Virus record (IMG/VR): IMGVR_UViG_3300032299_001134
Coordinates: 1 to 29,983 of that record
Source of the DNA: a virus
DNA: 29,983 nucleotides
Strand: one strand, 5' to 3'
Below are positions 1 through 22,122 of the stretch, piece after piece (position 1 is the first letter of the stretch; every line of letters begins with the position of its first letter). The notes beneath the pieces were generated by a model. The model did not search any database, was not told where the DNA came from, and worked only from the letters and a program-made list of their open reading frames with translations. Both the position numbers and the translations under genes were made by a program.

Positions 1-549
1 ACCTGTACTAATCTAGGAGCAGTAACTCAAACAACTATTCTTTGCACTAACCATGTTTATGACGATCCCTCTGCTATGTTTCCGTCAATTGAGAAGCATA
101 TGCCAGGAGGTAAAGCATGCGTGTACCTTCCATCAGTAACCGTCCAGCTTGCACGTAAACCGATGAAGTCTGATGATGGTAAAACAACAGACGGTGAACT
201 CGCCGTTGGTCAAAAATCTTATGCAGGTATTATTATTAGAGCTCTTACACGTAAAAACAGATTTATTAAACAGTATCTTGAAGGTGAGATGTACCTATCC
301 TTTGCTAACGGATTGGACAGGTATTATGGCATGCTTGATCTTGCGGTCGGTCTTGGAGTAGTTATTCAGAACGGATCGACATATGCTCTTGAAGATGGTA
401 CTAAGCTAGGATATTATCGTAATTTTAGAAAAGACACAACGTTGTGGGAAGAAACTATTCTTCCGAGATTAGACAGTCGAATTAAAAAAGAGTGGGCTTA
501 CAGTAATCTTGAAGAAGAGACACCAGAAGAAATAAGCGATGAAGCGTAA
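1..549 (+). CDS. uvsX: UvsX-like RecA-family recombinase, C-terminal part (5' truncated by window)
   Basis: The reading frame is open from base 1, so the start lies outside the window; 182 C-terminal residues are present. UvsX is the T4 RecA homologue that forms filaments on ssDNA and drives strand exchange and recombination-dependent replication. The segment beginning TNHVYDD, followed by PGGKACVYLPSVTVQLARK, matches the part of T4 UvsX after the Walker B strand (T4 has NHTYET, then TGGTGVMYSADTVFIIGKR). A region of the LDRYYGMLDLAVGLGVV type then corresponds to T4 IDPYSGLLDMALELGFVV. The Walker A part is not visible. The end is acidic (EEETPEEISDEA), as in T4-type UvsX tails. The stop overlaps the next gene by 11 bases. 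In T4, uvsX also lies close to gene 41. Family call by recalled alignment; confident. Confidence 0.88.
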   Translation, partial: TCTNLGAVTQTTILCTNHVYDDPSAMFPSIEKHMPGGKACVYLPSVTVQLARKPMKSDDGKTTDGELAVGQKSYAGIIIRALTRKNRFIKQYLEGEMYLSFANGLDRYYGMLDLAVGLGVVIQNGSTYALEDGTKLGYYRNFRKDTTLWEETILPRLDSRIKKEWAYSNLEEETPEEISDEA

Positions 550-2821: not shown

Positions 2822-3145
2822 ATGCAATTAAATTGGAAAGATTTTAACGAAATGTCGTTTAATAATATCTGCAAGTTGCCAGGAATCGGTAAAAAAGCAG
2901 CAGAACGCATTATTGCCAATAGACCTTTTAGATCTAACAATGATCTCTTTAAAATAAAGGGATTAGGTACTAGAACTCTCAAGAATTTAGGTATTGAGAG
3001 GGTAAAAAAAGAGAGAAAATCATGGTATCTAATGGAAGACGGTATAGAATACCCTGATTTTGCACTTGCCAAAAACATTCTTACAGGAAAAATTGATTTT
3101 TTCTGGAGAATTCCGAAAGATAAACGAGAATACCTTGTAAAGTAA
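2822..3145 (+). CDS. small helix-hairpin-helix (HhH/ComEA-like) DNA-binding protein
   Basis: 107 residues. The core (about residues 10-60) holds two HhH hairpins: NICKLPGIGKKAAERII and LFKIKGLGTRTLKNLGI. Each has the hydrophobic-x-G-hydrophobic-G turn that contacts the DNA backbone without sequence specificity. The tail (residues 60-107) is charged and unlike anything I recognise. The protein has no nuclease motif, so it is probably an accessory DNA-binding factor. The gene is divergent from the late gene at 1283-2803, with only 18 bases between the two start codons. It overlaps the amidotransferase gene by one base (TAATG), so it is probably co-translated with it. Whether it directs the neighbouring modification-type enzymes to DNA is speculation. 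Confidence 0.75.
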   Translation: MQLNWKDFNEMSFNNICKLPGIGKKAAERIIANRPFRSNNDLFKIKGLGTRTLKNLGIERVKKERKSWYLMEDGIEYPDFALAKNILTGKIDFFWRIPKDKREYLVK

Positions 3146-3810
3146 TGTGTGCTATAGTAGGAGCTAGTAATGTATCAAGGTTTGAAGTTATGTATGCTGG
3201 TAATTTACCACGCGGTAATTTTGCTACTGGAGTTGTGTGCTTGCATAATGGAGACGATCAAATGGTCATTAAGAAACAAGGGACGTTAGATTTTGATCAA
3301 GTAAAATTAGATAATAGATGTGATTATTTTGTAGGACACGTTCAGGCGCCTACATCTGCTAAGCGTACATGGTCATATGATACGTCACACCCTTTCGAAT
3401 CACTATCTTGGTCAGTGGTTCATAATGGAGTACTTACTAACCACGAACAAATTAGAGCTAAGTACATTGATTGGGATGTTAATCCTGTGGATACAGCTGT
3501 AATTTCTAATCTATTACAACAATTTACTGAAGAATGTAAAGGTGAATGTCCTGCACATGAGATAATTAAAAGAGTATTGAATTTACTAGAGGGTACTTTT
3601 GCGTTATGTATGATAGATACTGACTGTAACGACGTTTATATTGCTAGACAGGGCTCAATTCTACACTATAACGATCATGGAGATTTTTCTACTATAGGCG
3701 GTGAGGGGTTTAAGGTATTACCCGAAGGTACAATCTTAATGCTTACAGATTTCAAAACATGGGAAGTGATTAATCACTTCGAAACCAAATCACCATTCTT
3801 ATTTTTATGA
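3145..3810 (+). CDS. stand-alone class II glutamine amidotransferase (Ntn hydrolase)
   Basis: 221 residues, a GATase domain with no synthetase domain attached. Class II GATases cut glutamine using the N-terminal cysteine freed by Met removal and pass ammonia to a partner. Here MCAIVG puts Cys at position 2. HNGV (residues 93-96) supplies the oxyanion Asn-Gly, and D116 in PVDTAVIS matches the Asp that binds the glutamine amino group. The usual GHTR box reads GHVQ (64-67), so the Arg that holds the glutamine carboxylate is Gln; K or R residues at 73-74 might replace it. With no synthase domain, an ammonia acceptor must come from another protein. The QueC-like gene 1.9 kb upstream is the obvious candidate, since fused GAT-QueC proteins are known. 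Its stop overlaps the next start (ATGA). Confidence 0.8.
   Translation: MCAIVGASNVSRFEVMYAGNLPRGNFATGVVCLHNGDDQMVIKKQGTLDFDQVKLDNRCDYFVGHVQAPTSAKRTWSYDTSHPFESLSWSVVHNGVLTNHEQIRAKYIDWDVNPVDTAVISNLLQQFTEECKGECPAHEIIKRVLNLLEGTFALCMIDTDCNDVYIARQGSILHYNDHGDFSTIGGEGFKVLPEGTILMLTDFKTWEVINHFETKSPFLFL
3763..3780 (+). other. perfect 18-bp palindrome inside the amidotransferase 3' end
   Basis: GAAGTGAT-TA-ATCACTTC reads identically on both strands. It lies 27 bases before the glycosyltransferase start. It has no following T-run, so it is not a standard terminator. It could be a binding site, an RNA hairpin affecting the downstream start, or chance within codons. Confidence 0.4.
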
Positions 3811-4481
3811 ATATATTTTATTTTTCAGCAACCAAGGGGAGTAGAAAAGATACACTACTAGCTAAAAACCATTCTACTTACAATAGTTTTATTTTTAAAG
3901 AGAATAACGCAGAACCTCTTCCAAAAATATATAACAAAGCTATAGACTTTGCTATTGAAGAAAATTTTGACGCTATTGTACTATGTCATGACGATGTAAT
4001 TATCGAGTCAGATCTTGCATATAGGTTACCTTCTATCATGCAAGATTTTGACGTTGTGGGGGTAGCAGGTACAACAGAATGTAAACTACAAGAGCCTGCA
4101 TTGTGGCATATTATGGGTGGTGGTTTTGGAGGTGGAAAACTTCACGGTGCAGTTGCTCATGGAGATGAAAAGAATAGATCTATGACCTCTTTTGGACCAT
4201 ACCCTAAGCGCGTTCTTTTACTCGACGGCGTGTTTTTGTGTATTAAAAAAGAAGCTTTTACAAAAGTGAGATTTGATGAAGCAAATCCTGCAGGATTTCA
4301 TTTTTACGATCTTTCGTATTGTTTGGATGCTACTCTTGCTGGGTTTAAATGTGGTGTGTCTGATATTATAATTACCCATGCTTCACCAGGATTAAAGGAG
4401 TTTACACCTGAATTTTTAGAAGGACAAAAATGGTTCTTGAACAAATATGAAAAATATAGGGGTAAAATTGTTACCGTTTAG
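3807..4481 (+). CDS. GT-A-fold glycosyltransferase (family 2-like)
   Basis: 224 residues. The fold signature is a Rossmann-type start (MNIFYFSATKGSR), PKIYNKAID, then EENFDAIVLCHDDVII with adjacent Asp62-Asp63 in the place of the DxD metal/nucleotide-sugar motif. GVAGTTEC and the region VLLLDGVFLCIKKEAF come next, and then GFHFYDLSYCLDATLAGFKCGVSDI, the typical acceptor/base region of Glyco_tranf_2_5-like enzymes (D/E-x-D followed by A-x-x-A-G). Such proteins transfer a sugar from a nucleotide donor to protein, lipid or, in phages, DNA bases or virion proteins. The gene overlaps the amidotransferase by four bases (ATGA), so the two are probably made together. Acceptor unknown; modified DNA or a virion glycan are both open. 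Confidence 0.7.
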   Translation: MNIFYFSATKGSRKDTLLAKNHSTYNSFIFKENNAEPLPKIYNKAIDFAIEENFDAIVLCHDDVIIESDLAYRLPSIMQDFDVVGVAGTTECKLQEPALWHIMGGGFGGGKLHGAVAHGDEKNRSMTSFGPYPKRVLLLDGVFLCIKKEAFTKVRFDEANPAGFHFYDLSYCLDATLAGFKCGVSDIIITHASPGLKEFTPEFLEGQKWFLNKYEKYRGKIVTV

Positions 4482-4575: not shown

Positions 4576-5892
4576 GTGAGTAAGTTAGATCTCGATTATT
4601 TTGAAAAAGTGCTTTGCTATAAAGCACTTTTTGATTCTACGTATCTTGCATCTATTGCAGATTACGTTAAGCCTAAGTATTTTAAGGATAAGAATATAGC
4701 TAGTGTTTTTAGCATTATTACAGAGTTCTATGAAAAGCGTAGCAAGCTACCTACACTCACAGAAGTAAAATCATACCTAACTACTGACGAGCTTAAATCG
4801 TCGTTTAAGAACTTAGTAGAGTCACTTAAAGATATTGATAAAAATATCGATAAAGATGAGCTGTATGACAATACAGAGCAGTTCTTAAAAGAGAAAGCTG
4901 TTTATAATACCATGCTCGATGTAGCTGGTGATATATCTAAAGGTAATATTGATACGTCACAAATTTTAGATAAGATTGAAAAGTCTTGTAATATTAATCT
5001 TGTTACGGATACAGGATTTGATCTATATAACAACATTGAAGTTCTTATTGACGATCTCTGTAACGTACAAAAGTCTATACCTAGTACTTGGGAGTGGTTA
5101 GACGAAGCTCTCAATGGAGGATTTCTTGAAAATGGAAGGTCGTTATATGTCTTTGCAGGTGAAACTAACATTGGTAAGTCTATCTTTCTAGGTAATATTG
5201 CTGCTAACATAGCTAACCAGGGTAAGAACGTTCTATTGATTACATTAGAGATGTCAGAGCTATTATATGCTCGGCGTATTTGTACTAATGTAAGTAAAAT
5301 CCCTCTTAAAGATCTTTCATCCAATACACATGCTCTTAGACAAGCCATTAAGGAACAAAAAGAAGCAGATAAAGGTAGAATCTTTATTAAAGAGTTTCCA
5401 CCTTCTACAATTACCCCTAACCAGTTAAAAGCTTTCATTAAAAAACTTACTGATACCGGAGTACCTATTCATGCTATTGTTTTAGACTATCTCAATTTGC
5501 TTCATTCTTCGGTTGGAACCAATTCATATGAAAGAATTAAAAATGTTACAGAGCAGGTTAGAGCTATGTCATATATATTCAACTGTCCCATTATATCTGC
5601 AACACAGTTAAATAGGTCAGGTTTTAATACCGATAATCCCGATCTTGCAACTATCTCTGAGTCTGTAGGCTTAGCAGCTACAGCTGATGTAATTGTATCT
5701 ATATTTCAAAACGAAGAAGATAGAGATCTAGGAATTATTAGATTAGGTATGATGAAGAATAGATACGGTCCTAGAGGCCATACACAGCCTATGAGGATTG
5801 ATTACTCTACTCTTACTATTACACAAGCCGAGAGTGATGTTATTAGTAGTGAGGATTCTACATTTAATACGTTGCAGCTACTATCAGGTTGA
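4576..5892 (+). CDS. 41: gp41-like replicative DNA helicase (DnaB family)
   Basis: 438 residues, GTG start. T4 gp41 is a hexameric 5'-3' helicase that unwinds the fork and joins gp61 to form the primosome. Residues about 1-150 are the helical N-terminal domain of DnaB-type helicases. The RecA-like motor follows: GGFLENG, then Walker A GETNIGKS (195-202, K201), LLITLEMSELLYARR (H1a-type), Walker B IVLDYLNLL (D304), ISATQLNR (H3/H4) and KNRYGPRG near the C-terminus. The length fits gp41 (475 in T4) with a shorter tail. The gene opens the replication operon behind a palindrome and a sigma70-like promoter. There is no plausible Shine-Dalgarno sequence. Confidence 0.92.
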   Translation: MSKLDLDYFEKVLCYKALFDSTYLASIADYVKPKYFKDKNIASVFSIITEFYEKRSKLPTLTEVKSYLTTDELKSSFKNLVESLKDIDKNIDKDELYDNTEQFLKEKAVYNTMLDVAGDISKGNIDTSQILDKIEKSCNINLVTDTGFDLYNNIEVLIDDLCNVQKSIPSTWEWLDEALNGGFLENGRSLYVFAGETNIGKSIFLGNIAANIANQGKNVLLITLEMSELLYARRICTNVSKIPLKDLSSNTHALRQAIKEQKEADKGRIFIKEFPPSTITPNQLKAFIKKLTDTGVPIHAIVLDYLNLLHSSVGTNSYERIKNVTEQVRAMSYIFNCPIISATQLNRSGFNTDNPDLATISESVGLAATADVIVSIFQNEEDRDLGIIRLGMMKNRYGPRGHTQPMRIDYSTLTITQAESDVISSEDSTFNTLQLLSG

Positions 5893-18482: not shown

Positions 18483-20930
18483 TTAAAACTCAGCTTCTGC
18501 ATCCCATCCAATTTGATACAAGGTAGCTGCTGCAGGTGTATTTACAGGAGTACTAAAATAACCTAACCCCATAGTCGTTGTAGTATTAGTTGGTATAGTC
18601 GCACGGGACAATGTTTCACCATCGTTTTCTATCTCTGCCCCTGTAATTGCTGTTCTCGTACTGTTTAATATAGATGCTTTTCCTCTAGACGGGCTCCACA
18701 TATGAAATATAGGATCAAAAGCTTTAGGTACAGTAAATCTTATACCTGGATGATTAACTGTTGAAGGTGGTAGTACTACATGTATAGATCTTGATCCATT
18801 AGGGTCACTATTAAGATGTCCTCCTAATTCATAATACCGCTGACATAGAGCGAATTCCATTTGCTGGGGTCTATGTTCAAAAGGTGTAGGTCCTTTACCT
18901 ACTTCAAGTTGAATCTGTGCTATATCATAATAACCTCCATCTACACCAGATAATACATTAGTACAAAGTGTGGAAAGTACAGGCATAGTCATAAAATTAC
19001 CTATAGGGTAATCTAATTCTGTACCTGAACCGGGGTAGAAGTAATTAAATCCGTTAGCTGTAGCGCTTATAGAGTGTCCATGAGCTATAAGTATACCTCT
19101 AGACCAGTGAGTCTTAATATCCACTTGATATAACCACGAACTAAGAGGAGGTAAAAGACCTCTCGAACCTATAGGGGTATAACTAGGTCGTTCCGGATAC
19201 CGACCCCCAACAAGAGGAATTTCACCGGGATCATATGCAAATGCCGAGACTTGCTCAAAAGTAGGCATTGTATATGTATGTGTAAATTTCTGCCATTCTG
19301 TAGTTAGGGGCATTAAGTTTGAAATAGTTGCCGGTGTCCATAAACTACCTTCTCTTGAATGTATTTGGGATTCAGAGAAAATATAAGTATCTTTGCTCGC
19401 TCTTGCCCAAAAAGAAAGCGTTACTGGTTTACCTAGTATTTCGCTAGCGTTCTCTATATTCTGTATACAAAAATTACCAGTATGGTTAGACAGACTATCA
19501 TATAAGTTAGTACCGTCTCTATATGTACCTACGCCATTTTGATAGGAAAGTCTTAAGAAATAATTACCATTTAGTTGAAAGTCATCTCCGTCATCCCCTG
19601 TTATAGGAAAGTTAGTTCTATTATTATTCTCCCTTGTTACCGAAAACTCACCCCTTGCATTAGATGCCGCTGAAGAATAGGTATTCCACCTATCTGCCGT
19701 CATAACAGTACGAGTACCATTAGATGTATATGTTGGTATATTACTTACAGGTACATTTAGTGTTTGAGTTCTTCTCTGCCAGAAATCAAAATTACCGTTT
19801 ATAACTTTATTTCTAAATCCTAAAGATCCAGAAGTATCTAGCTCTATTTTAACTGAACCATCAAGAGGTGAAAATGATTCCTGGTTTTGCATTTCTGTAC
19901 CATTAACAGTTGCAACAAGAGGGTATGTTAGCTCCATATCGACATTCGCAACGTTATCTGGTAGCGCCTTAATAATATAAACCATTCCCTTAGCAGATAC
20001 AGGTGTCTCGTCTCCTAGCCCGCTCGCAACAGGATATAAAGTAGCTGTTTGTGGAGTCTGAGTACCGTAAATAGTTTTATTTCTTAAATCAGGAATTATA
20101 AAATTACCAGCTATAACATTGCCAATTATCTGTGCTAATTCAGGATATTCTGATTGCGCTACGCTTTGACCATGACAAGCAATCCAACCATACGGTATAT
20201 TGGTTGTATTTGTGCTAGGAAACGGCATGATAGTTCCAACTGGTACAATAGCGCTACCTGAAACAAATAGCGTTTCACCACCAGGGCTATCTCTCCAGTT
20301 TAAATTACCAGCAACATCAGAATATAAAAACCCAGCACCACCATTACCAGGAAGCGTGTAAGTTGTGCTGTTTCCAGTACCAATTTTATAATTAAAATTC
20401 CGAGGTAGAGTTACACTACTAAAGTTCTTAGTCGAAATTTCATCAACGTTTATGGTATTTGATAAAGTTATTTTATTAGATGGATCTAAAGTTAATCCAG
20501 AGCCAAGCGCATTTGTTGATATATTACCTGCAGATAGTGACCCTACTTTAATTTGATTTGTAAAAGAATCAATAGTTATAGTATTATCACCCTCAGTGTA
20601 TATACCACCAATAGCCTTCCAGCTCGACTCCTCTCTCCAATCGGGTCCGACGTATGTATATAGAGTATTATTACCTCCTGCGAAAATTAAATCACCTGTA
20701 AAGGTAGTTGCGAGTTGATTATATGGTAGAGGATACGTTCCGAGGAAACTAACACCCCCAGCAGGTACACCTCCTATAGTCTGCCCATCGCCTATATATA
20801 GCTTTTTTGTATCTACAGTATATCCTAATTCACCCTCAGATAGAGTTACGTTTTTTCTGTCTGCATCTGTACCTCTACGTACTAGTAGCTTGAGAAGAGT
20901 GTTTTCGTAGATTTCTATTTTCTTTGCCAT
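18483..20930 (-). CDS. multidomain tail fibre with attachment, collar and CBM-like domains
   Basis: 815 residues from ATG 20930; a longer frame to 20984 is open, but it would overlap the upstream gene and the paralogue starts at the equivalent residue. N-terminus: LVRRGTDADRKNVTLSEGEL, then GYTVDTKKLYIGDGQTIGG, the short fibre-attachment module seen in Mtd-N/phage fibre starts and shared with the next gene upstream. Residues about 230-320: collar domain (VGTIMPFPST, YGWIACHGQSV, GNFIIPDLRNKTIYG). From about residue 370 LGFRNKVINGNFDFWQRR opens a carbohydrate-binding-module-like beta sandwich (TADRWN, LRLSYQNG, VTLSFWARAS, WQKFTHTYTMP, QIQLEVGKGPTPFEHRP) often found in marine phage fibres. Receptor binding is the likely role. 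Confidence 0.8.
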   Translation of the reverse strand: MAKKIEIYENTLLKLLVRRGTDADRKNVTLSEGELGYTVDTKKLYIGDGQTIGGVPAGGVSFLGTYPLPYNQLATTFTGDLIFAGGNNTLYTYVGPDWREESSWKAIGGIYTEGDNTITIDSFTNQIKVGSLSAGNISTNALGSGLTLDPSNKITLSNTINVDEISTKNFSSVTLPRNFNYKIGTGNSTTYTLPGNGGAGFLYSDVAGNLNWRDSPGGETLFVSGSAIVPVGTIMPFPSTNTTNIPYGWIACHGQSVAQSEYPELAQIIGNVIAGNFIIPDLRNKTIYGTQTPQTATLYPVASGLGDETPVSAKGMVYIIKALPDNVANVDMELTYPLVATVNGTEMQNQESFSPLDGSVKIELDTSGSLGFRNKVINGNFDFWQRRTQTLNVPVSNIPTYTSNGTRTVMTADRWNTYSSAASNARGEFSVTRENNNRTNFPITGDDGDDFQLNGNYFLRLSYQNGVGTYRDGTNLYDSLSNHTGNFCIQNIENASEILGKPVTLSFWARASKDTYIFSESQIHSREGSLWTPATISNLMPLTTEWQKFTHTYTMPTFEQVSAFAYDPGEIPLVGGRYPERPSYTPIGSRGLLPPLSSWLYQVDIKTHWSRGILIAHGHSISATANGFNYFYPGSGTELDYPIGNFMTMPVLSTLCTNVLSGVDGGYYDIAQIQLEVGKGPTPFEHRPQQMEFALCQRYYELGGHLNSDPNGSRSIHVVLPPSTVNHPGIRFTVPKAFDPIFHMWSPSRGKASILNSTRTAITGAEIENDGETLSRATIPTNTTTTMGLGYFSTPVNTPAAATLYQIGWDAEAEF

Positions 20931-20934
20931 ATTA

Positions 20935-22122
20935 TTAAGTATATAAGTAAATTGGTATTGCGATACGTCCAGGTATTGTTTCACCGCTTTGTGTAGTAAC
21001 TCCAGATAATGATAAGAATCCTGCTGAACGTAACGTAATTAGGTTATTATTACTATCGTGAACAGTAATACCTGTTGTAGCTTCAGTATTTAAAGCATAA
21101 CCATTAAACGCAGTTAACCCAGGGTTAGTTGCACATGAGCTTAGTATATCATATACAGTGCTTACAGTACCTGTAACTCTGCCTCTATCATTTACTATAA
21201 CAGATTGTAAATATCCGGTTTTCTCTGTCTTCGCTAAGTTAGATGGTGGATCTCCTTCCACTAGAGTAAGAGCGTCTGAAACAACGGTGAACTGATTACC
21301 ATTATAATTTAAACCTAATCTACCGTCTGTAGGATCAAAGCTAACAGGAGGGTTATAATTATAAAATCTAGTATATATTAAAGCGCCAGCACCGTCTTGC
21401 TTCATCCCTTTAGTACTATCGAAGGTAGTGCTAAAATTAATATTACCAACAGATATAGAGGCTGCTCCAACAGGTACACCTGTCACCGCTAGTTGATTTG
21501 ATACAAATCCCAATCCTCCATTAGGGTTTAAGTTAAGCCCTATTTGACTTCCATTACCACCGTTTATTCCTCTGTTAAAAGAATTAGATCCTATATTGGT
21601 ATGATCTATTAAACCTACTTTAATCTGGTTTCTATCATTAATAATTACTGTAGACTTATCTACGTTTGCAGATAAGCCGTTAATAGATGTAGCAACAATT
21701 CCTCCTTGTGAATATGCTGCATCAGAATTAAACTTATTAGCTCCTACGCTGTTGTTTCTTAGCTGAAGTACACGTCTTTGACCCTTATTAACGTATTCTA
21801 TTGTTGTATCGTCTGTTTCTGCACCTATAAATTTCCATGCAGATAGCTGACTGTAGTCTGTACCAGTTAATTGATATAACCAACCAGCTTCATTTACTAT
21901 ATCGCCCTGTGCAGCGTTTGTGGTTGTTCTTAAATTTTGTGTGTTGACAGGTAAGTGAAATATAGGAGATACAGTACTACCGCCCTTCGTAATGCCATCA
22001 CCAACATATACACGACCTGTATCTACAGCATATCCTAGCTCTCCCTGTTCAAGAACCACTGTTCTGCGCTGAGCGTCCGTTCCGCGCCTTATTTTAAGCT
22101 TTATAATTGTAATATCTGGCAT
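20935..22122 (-). CDS. tail-fibre protein, N-terminal paralogue of the next gene
   Basis: 395 residues. The N-terminus (LKIRRGTDAQRRTVVLEQGE, then LGYAVDTGRVYVGDGITKGG) is the same attachment module as in the 815-residue fibre four bases downstream, so the pair arose by duplication of that module. The rest is repetitive beta-rich fibre shaft (NGGNGSQIGLNLNPNGGLGFVSNQLAVTG) without a recognised tip domain; the end GRIAIPIYLYT is short. It lies between the gp12-like gene (three bases upstream) and the larger fibre. It may trimerise with, or link, its paralogue. Confidence 0.75.
   Translation of the reverse strand: MPDITIIKLKIRRGTDAQRRTVVLEQGELGYAVDTGRVYVGDGITKGGSTVSPIFHLPVNTQNLRTTTNAAQGDIVNEAGWLYQLTGTDYSQLSAWKFIGAETDDTTIEYVNKGQRRVLQLRNNSVGANKFNSDAAYSQGGIVATSINGLSANVDKSTVIINDRNQIKVGLIDHTNIGSNSFNRGINGGNGSQIGLNLNPNGGLGFVSNQLAVTGVPVGAASISVGNINFSTTFDSTKGMKQDGAGALIYTRFYNYNPPVSFDPTDGRLGLNYNGNQFTVVSDALTLVEGDPPSNLAKTEKTGYLQSVIVNDRGRVTGTVSTVYDILSSCATNPGLTAFNGYALNTEATTGITVHDSNNNLITLRSAGFLSLSGVTTQSGETIPGRIAIPIYLYT

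Follow-up and report, generated by a model that had tools for sequence, protein, structure and literature searches.

In a large group of uncultured aquatic phages, the DNA-replication block holds genes for a QueC-like enzyme and a stand-alone class II glutamine amidotransferase (GATase) beside one for a glycosyltransferase (GT), and the constant partner of the GATase is QueC, not the GT. We propose that the GATase and the QueC homologue act as a split Gat/QueC enzyme in making a 7-deazaguanine that replaces guanine in the phage DNA, and that this base is then probably modified by the GT. Taken whole, this reading is in our view evenly poised between right and wrong, and each of its chemical steps is put forward from gene content, co-occurrence, conserved residues and predicted folds.

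The window, by which we mean the whole stretch of DNA analysed, is the 29,983-base virus record IMGVR_UViG_3300032299_001134 (Table 1). The initial annotation described the GATase and GT genes as a coupled pair, preceded by a helix-hairpin-helix (HhH) gene with a one-base overlap and with a QueC-like gene nearby, and this layout is correct. The frames and coordinates hold, the GATase and GT genes have ATGA in common, the last A of the HhH TAA is the first base of the GATase ATG, and the nearby gene is a clear PF06508 member. The ATGA overlap was considered as a sign of function and rejected: overlapping genes are the rule in the window, with overlaps at 16/28 same-strand junctions (7 of them of 1 or 4 bases), so that ATGA alone is no evidence. 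QueC is the sole pathway gene in the window, FolE, QueD and QueE being found in relatives. Elsewhere in the window, two minus-strand genes (18483-20984 and 20935-22122) encode tail proteins that have, close to the N-terminus, the Mtd_N domain (PF18454) of the major tropism determinant.

Table 1. Genes of the replication block in the window, with the profile matches that identify them.
Feature	Position	Strand	Match
UvsX-like recombinase, C-terminal part, cut by window start	76..549	+	phrog_97 3e-11, profile 351-460 of 506
QueC homologue, 249 aa	539..1288	+	PF06508 1.4e-50; phrog_1550 6e-54
Small helix-hairpin-helix (HhH) protein, 107 aa, optional member	2822..3145	+	PF12836 (HHH_3) 6e-10
Stand-alone class II glutamine amidotransferase (GATase), 221 aa	3145..3810	+	GATase_6 4e-9, GATase_7 8e-7; phrog_12378 2e-11
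GT-A glycosyltransferase (GT), 224 aa	3807..4481	+	Glyco_tranf_2_5 PF13712 7e-9
DnaB/gp41-like replicative helicase	4576..5892	+	PF03796 5e-29; phrog_19 2e-76

Relatives were collected by GT-seeded scans (40, then 80 loci) and a GATase-seeded scan (best 80 of 291 loci), which gave 131 distinct contigs after repeats were removed; a further GT-seeded scan brought in clade B, lineage C and distant GT domains. A QueC-seeded scan (best 80 of 567 loci) selects for neither GT nor GATase and is the fairest test of linkage, and an extra scan was seeded by the GT of one sub-clade, to which its counts are biased. Loci on repeat contigs were left out before counting (30 in arriving at the 131 contigs; a further 9, and L028 and L032, which had been read again, for the UvsX-to-GT count; 14 for the QueC-selected count), and near-identical contigs from different samples were counted separately, such that the counts are not numbers of independent events. 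As far as each contig reaches, nearly all of the 131 follow the clade A order UvsX - QueC - (minus-strand gene) - HhH - GATase - GT - DnaB - gp32, and QueC and GATase are both absent from L028 and L032. Clade B has UvsX, one or more minus-strand genes, GT and DnaB at a locus without QueC or GATase. Lineage C has QueC, GATase, two small genes and GT at a locus without UvsX or DnaB, and in the loci that were read QueD and QueE lie upstream. In one locus (L346, 5773-7893) the GT lies between the other two, in the order QueC - GT - GATase. A tblastn search with three GT queries matched no named phage, and none of 24 bacterial genome stretches with the gene pattern was a relative.

Of the 87 contigs that reach from UvsX to GT, 57 carry QueC together with GATase and 30 lack the two, and neither occurs alone. 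Where QueC-selected contigs reach from QueC to DnaB, 38/38 carry the GATase and 34/38 the GT; where the locus has neither UvsX nor DnaB and extends more than 2.3 kb beyond QueC, the corresponding counts are 15/15 and 14/15. All four contigs without GT among the 38 (L323, L330, L331, L340) have an NAD-dependent epimerase after the GATase, separated from it in L331 by one small gene. Three of these (L323, L330, L331) carry a carbamoyltransferase before QueC, and in L330 another GT2 gene overlaps the start of the GATase frame. In clade B, 14 contigs of up to 207 kb were searched with PF06508 as part of a set of 22; 12 of them gave no match and the other two a weak one (25 bits, 55 residues). A separate GATase search there gave 0/12 with no positive control, and the GATase absence at the locus rests on the 87-contig count. 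On a tree of 80 GT rows, 3 changes of the QueC+GATase state suffice; few independent events therefore lie behind the linkage counts, and the synteny is largely inherited.

The initial annotation proposed conserved co-occurrence of its three genes in related phages as a check, and these counts show that the constant partner of the GATase is QueC. The GT is not bound to the pathway, because 30 of the 87 UvsX-to-GT contigs have it without QueC or GATase at the locus, and the HhH gene comes and goes, being undetected in 22 contigs reaching from QueC to GATase. Association of the GT with tail or capsid genes, which had been named as evidence against a role in DNA modification, is not seen in the main set; there the GT is found in the company of UvsX/DnaB or of QueC.

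The N-terminal Cys nucleophile (MC) and the HNG motif that mark class II enzymes are invariant in 29/29 aligned GATases. The window protein matches phrog_12378, the family of ValKK3 ORF135, end to end, and the best PDB matches to its predicted model (pLDDT 89.8) are the glutaminase domains of GlmS/GFAT. The Arg of a GHTR-type motif binds the glutamine carboxylate, and the observation that Gln stands in its place (GHVQ) is real, with Gln67 invariant in all 29 aligned GATases. As an anomaly of the window gene it was rejected, since it is a trait of the family: GH[VA]QAPT is present in 105/120 clade rows (the other 15 are partial or unmatched by the pattern), and ValKK3 ORF135 has Gln too (CHVQAPT). 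The GHTR-type Arg is thus missing from clade A and ValKK3 and is present in lineage C, whose GATase reads YHSRGPT in 13/13 members. The GATase and QueC lie on separate genes in the window and give separate matches in the relatives too, so the single polypeptide of Gat-QueC is not found here, and the two halves nonetheless occur together (57/57, 38/38 and 15/15).

The window QueC keeps SGGxDS, YGQRHxxE, VPFRN, YWD and TCY. Clade A as a whole (47 rows, the window and 46 relatives) has the canonical motifs of PF06508 cluster 1 (SGGxDS, YxQxHxxE, VPxRN and, in the zinc region, the CY tyrosine), with YGQRHxxE, V[PA]FRN and TCY in 47/47 rows and SGGxDS in 44/47, the other 3 rows starting late in the alignment. 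The C(x)8CxxCxxC zinc site and the YPDC cysteine are present in 0/47; three of the four zinc cysteines and the YPDC cysteine are gone from every row, with YWD[GST] standing for YPDC and ADA[TSY][TS]P[SA]SS[LM]R at the zinc-cysteine position (ADATTPSSSLR in the window). Lineage C QueC has both the zinc site and YPDC in 13/13, and more distant T4-like relatives (e.g. L309, L313, L316) have YWDG with zinc cysteines, for which reason the YPDC cysteine seems to have been lost before the zinc site. In E. coli QueC the motif tyrosines and an Arg are essential and zinc is required, according to the part of PMC13329287 (2026) covered here. Because the required zinc site is missing, the product of clade A QueC may differ, or the enzyme may not be a preQ0 synthase; one guess is that it stops at the amide. 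A QueC that retains the catalytic tyrosines and has lost the zinc site offers a way to test in which order the steps of QueC chemistry occur.

Other pathway genes were found in the IMG/VR contigs searched, with FolE in 13/24, QueD in 7/21 and QueE in 13/16, the last with phrog_2076, used in place of PF04055, which matched only 3/24. Long relatives such as G006, G007 and G015 carry all four of FolE, QueD, QueE and QueC, with QueE, QueD and FolE within a few kb, and both clade A and lineage C have a P-loop kinase near QueE, the two kinases being homologues (36.5%). In several QueE proteins (L192 3348-4124, L193 3605-4366, L253 1929-2735) CNL[ST]C is followed by the next cysteine 12 residues on (GCDS), a spacing unusual for cluster binding, and PF04055 mostly misses these proteins. 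A protein of 178-199 aa directly adjoins FolE (L192 6376-6912, L193 7523-8059, L196 4044-4643); it belongs to phrog_624 (DNA binding), with a weak Pyr_excise match in the L192 copy. DpdA was not found with phrog_887 in 16 IMG/VR contigs, some of which may be fragments, and the JenP1 control was positive; homologues of ValKK3 ORF138, a presumed DpdA2, were likewise found in 0/19 such contigs, which again may be fragments. PF01702 also found no TGT, a weak test, and was set aside as a DpdA detector, being uninformative because it missed JenP1's own DpdA.

Relatives carry further genes that could tailor a base, none of which was found in the window. Among QueC-seeded relatives, a GNAT acetyltransferase comes after the GATase in 7 contigs and a formyltransferase in 4, and in 8 the GT is preceded by a PF18909 dATP/dGTP diphosphohydrolase; in L309 and L311 QueC and GATase are separated by a protein with an IMPDH/GMP-reductase domain, and in L343 cytidylyltransferase-like genes flank the GT on both sides. 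Across 68 contigs with GATase then GT, a set that includes the sub-clade-biased scan, the two genes are adjacent in 24 and have a PF18909 diphosphohydrolase between them in 26, with GNAT in 19, formyltransferase in 10, cytidylyltransferase-like genes in 9 and other gaps in 15, these classes overlapping. MazZ of phage S-2L is a (d)GTP diphosphohydrolase encoded next to base-synthesis genes (PMC8342488, in the part covered), and by analogy the PF18909 proteins may act in the same way.

The GT model has a pLDDT of 73.8, with residues 88-139 low and unreliable. The top folds among those listed by VIA-align are majastridin (2qgi; Z 13.7, 182 residues, rmsd 3.5) and the fucosyltransferase WrtF (Z 13.2), and the only solved relative by sequence is GlfT2 (E 0.069). 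HDD is conserved in 128/131 and HxSPG in 129/131 clade GT rows. By its fold and motifs, the GT may modify a 7-deazaguanine base with a sugar. Glycosylation is the weak link of the pathway reading, because 30/87 contigs keep the GT without QueC and GATase; in clade B no acceptor base is apparent, since QueC is absent from the locus and the thymidylate-synthase-type hydroxymethylase family PF00303 was not found in 21 IMG/VR contigs that include this clade. Further GT2-like genes in the same genomes (L193 1-2215, L195 1865-2698) are candidates for virion or envelope glycosylation.

We envisage the following pathway. FolE, QueD and QueE, encoded elsewhere in the genome and seen in relatives, would make 7-carboxy-7-deazaguanine. 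The GATase and QueC would together correspond to the known Gat-QueC enzyme divided into two subunits, in which the GATase would release ammonia from glutamine and the QueC-like ligase, with ATP, would give the 7-amide, or perhaps a nitrile or amidine. The modified guanine would probably be synthesised at the nucleotide level and incorporated in place of dG during copying, as DpdA was not found and relatives carry the P-loop kinase and dGTP diphosphohydrolase. The GT would then most likely glycosylate the modified DNA base, and distant relatives would vary this last step with acetyl, formyl, sugar-nucleotide and carbamoyl enzymes. That the GATase works with QueC we hold with confidence, and it is likely that their product goes into phage DNA; the action of the GT on modified phage DNA is a tentative proposal that falls a little short of even. 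The strongest form of the model, in which guanine is largely or wholly replaced at the dNTP level by a 7-deazaguanine from a zinc-free QueC and is then capped (by sugar, or by acyl, formyl or carbamoyl groups in relatives) to give a modular glycosylated 7-deazaguanine DNA, is rather unlikely to be correct in full. The hypermodification set suggested by the initial annotation thus gains from the QueC+GATase linkage, from FolE, QueD and QueE, from the position between UvsX and the helicase and from the tailoring enzymes, and loses in that the GATase is tied first to QueC, the GT also occurs without the pathway and the HhH gene is variable.

The alternative with most weight, one we consider a substantial but minority possibility, is that QueC and the GATase modify DNA while the GT is unrelated, acting on a virion protein, the host envelope or something else, and shares the UvsX-DnaB neighbourhood by descent. 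The contigs with a GT and neither partner fit this, as do the other GT2 genes of the same genomes, the nearest GT folds, which act on glycans and proteins, and the two distant GT domains that were read (L268, L271), both in glycosyltransferase-rich islands with dUTPase-like genes. However, in a second lineage, where the genes do not lie in the UvsX-DnaB block, the GT again comes after QueC and GATase on 14 of the 15 QueC-selected contigs, and a sugar epimerase takes its place in each of the four exceptions described above. The converse grouping, in which the GATase and GT are the functional pair and a GlmS-like glutaminase helps to make an amino sugar for the GT to transfer, is very improbable. 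The two genes are within 60 bases of one another or overlap in 120/196 contigs with GT, and the glutaminase fold is nearest to GlmS/GFAT, but the 221-aa glutaminase stands alone with no sugar-isomerase domain, it is never without QueC where the region is covered whereas the GT is often without the GATase, and ValKK3 has QueC and GATase with no GT of the window family.

The pathway could also feed 7-deazaguanine to the tRNA queuosine system of the host rather than to phage DNA, a route raised for DpdA-less phages in the covered part of Hutinet 2019 (PMC6884629) and in keeping with the failure to find DpdA (0/16) or a DpdA2-like gene (0/19) in the IMG/VR contigs searched. We regard it as improbable: the dGTP diphosphohydrolase and IMPDH/GMP-reductase-domain protein of the relatives point to the deoxyguanine pool, and Campylobacter phages carry dADG without DpdA (PMC6884629, same part). 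Incorporation into phage DNA is thus our preferred reading, and the same source, so far as covered, names modified dGTP and undetected deoxyribosyltransferases as routes that might be taken, and reports that 7-deazaguanines shield phage DNA from restriction.

In the literature searched, no paper linked phage QueC to both a stand-alone GATase and a GT, and sugar-bearing 7-deazaguanines did not appear. The arrangement nonetheless resembles several known systems in part. Phage T4 likewise has a glycosyltransferase gene (b-gt, for beta-glucosyltransferase) beside uvsX and gene 41 (the gp41 helicase). The T4 enzyme has a GT-B fold, whereas the window GT is GT-A, and the hydroxymethylase family was not found in the 21 contigs searched. 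If the GT does act on 7-deazaguanines, guanine would be added to cytosine and thymine in the set of phage bases hypermodified in interchangeable steps. The Z-cluster of S-2L, in the part of its description covered, sets a dGTP diphosphohydrolase (MazZ) beside base-synthesis genes, as PF18909 does in the relatives, but the base replaced would here be guanine rather than adenine, and the window has no PF18909 gene. The Firehammervirus CP220 group, with DpdA-independent dADG, has QueC and FolE near DnaB, radical SAM genes and no DpdA found, and its DnaB is the nearest named one to that of the window (about 30%); it differs in a QueC with FPDC and zinc cysteines. Hutinet et al. (PMC6884629, as covered) describe Gat-QueC, a DpdA-less phage group, and Campylobacter phages that are highly modified with dADG. 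The Gat-QueC fusion of Nonagvirus (9g/JenP1), which makes dG+, shares a class II glutaminase and a QueC ligase, with FolE, QueD and QueE encoded; here, by comparison, there are two genes, DpdA was not found, QueC is without zinc cysteines and a GT is attached. The GT of the window family was found in none of ValKK3, JenP1 and CP220, all of which bear QueC.

The closest parallel to the GATase itself is in the Schizotequatrovirus ValKK3, a member of the same genus as nt-1, on which, as on phage 6E351A, others have made measurements. Its stand-alone GATase, ORF135 (L197 12720-13328), belongs to phrog_12378, has the HVQAPT motif and overlaps QueC in a cluster with FolE, QueD and a 7-cyano-7-deazaguanine reductase. 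ValKK3 differs in its QueF-like gene, in a QueC with the zinc site and in ORF138, presumed to be DpdA2 by its position and from the text of Hutinet et al. on nt-1, to which PHROG assigns no function. For this genus PMC12028318, in the text covered, names FolE, QueD, QueE, QueC, DpdA and QueF and reports 15% dG modification in phage 6E351A, consistent with dPreQ1; the term 'amidotransferase' was not found in that text. ORF135 is annotated as 'Nucleophile aminohydrolases' only, its record naming no glutaminase role. A split glutaminase would explain this role-less gene and, since ORF135 sits in cultured Schizotequatroviruses, the idea is testable now.
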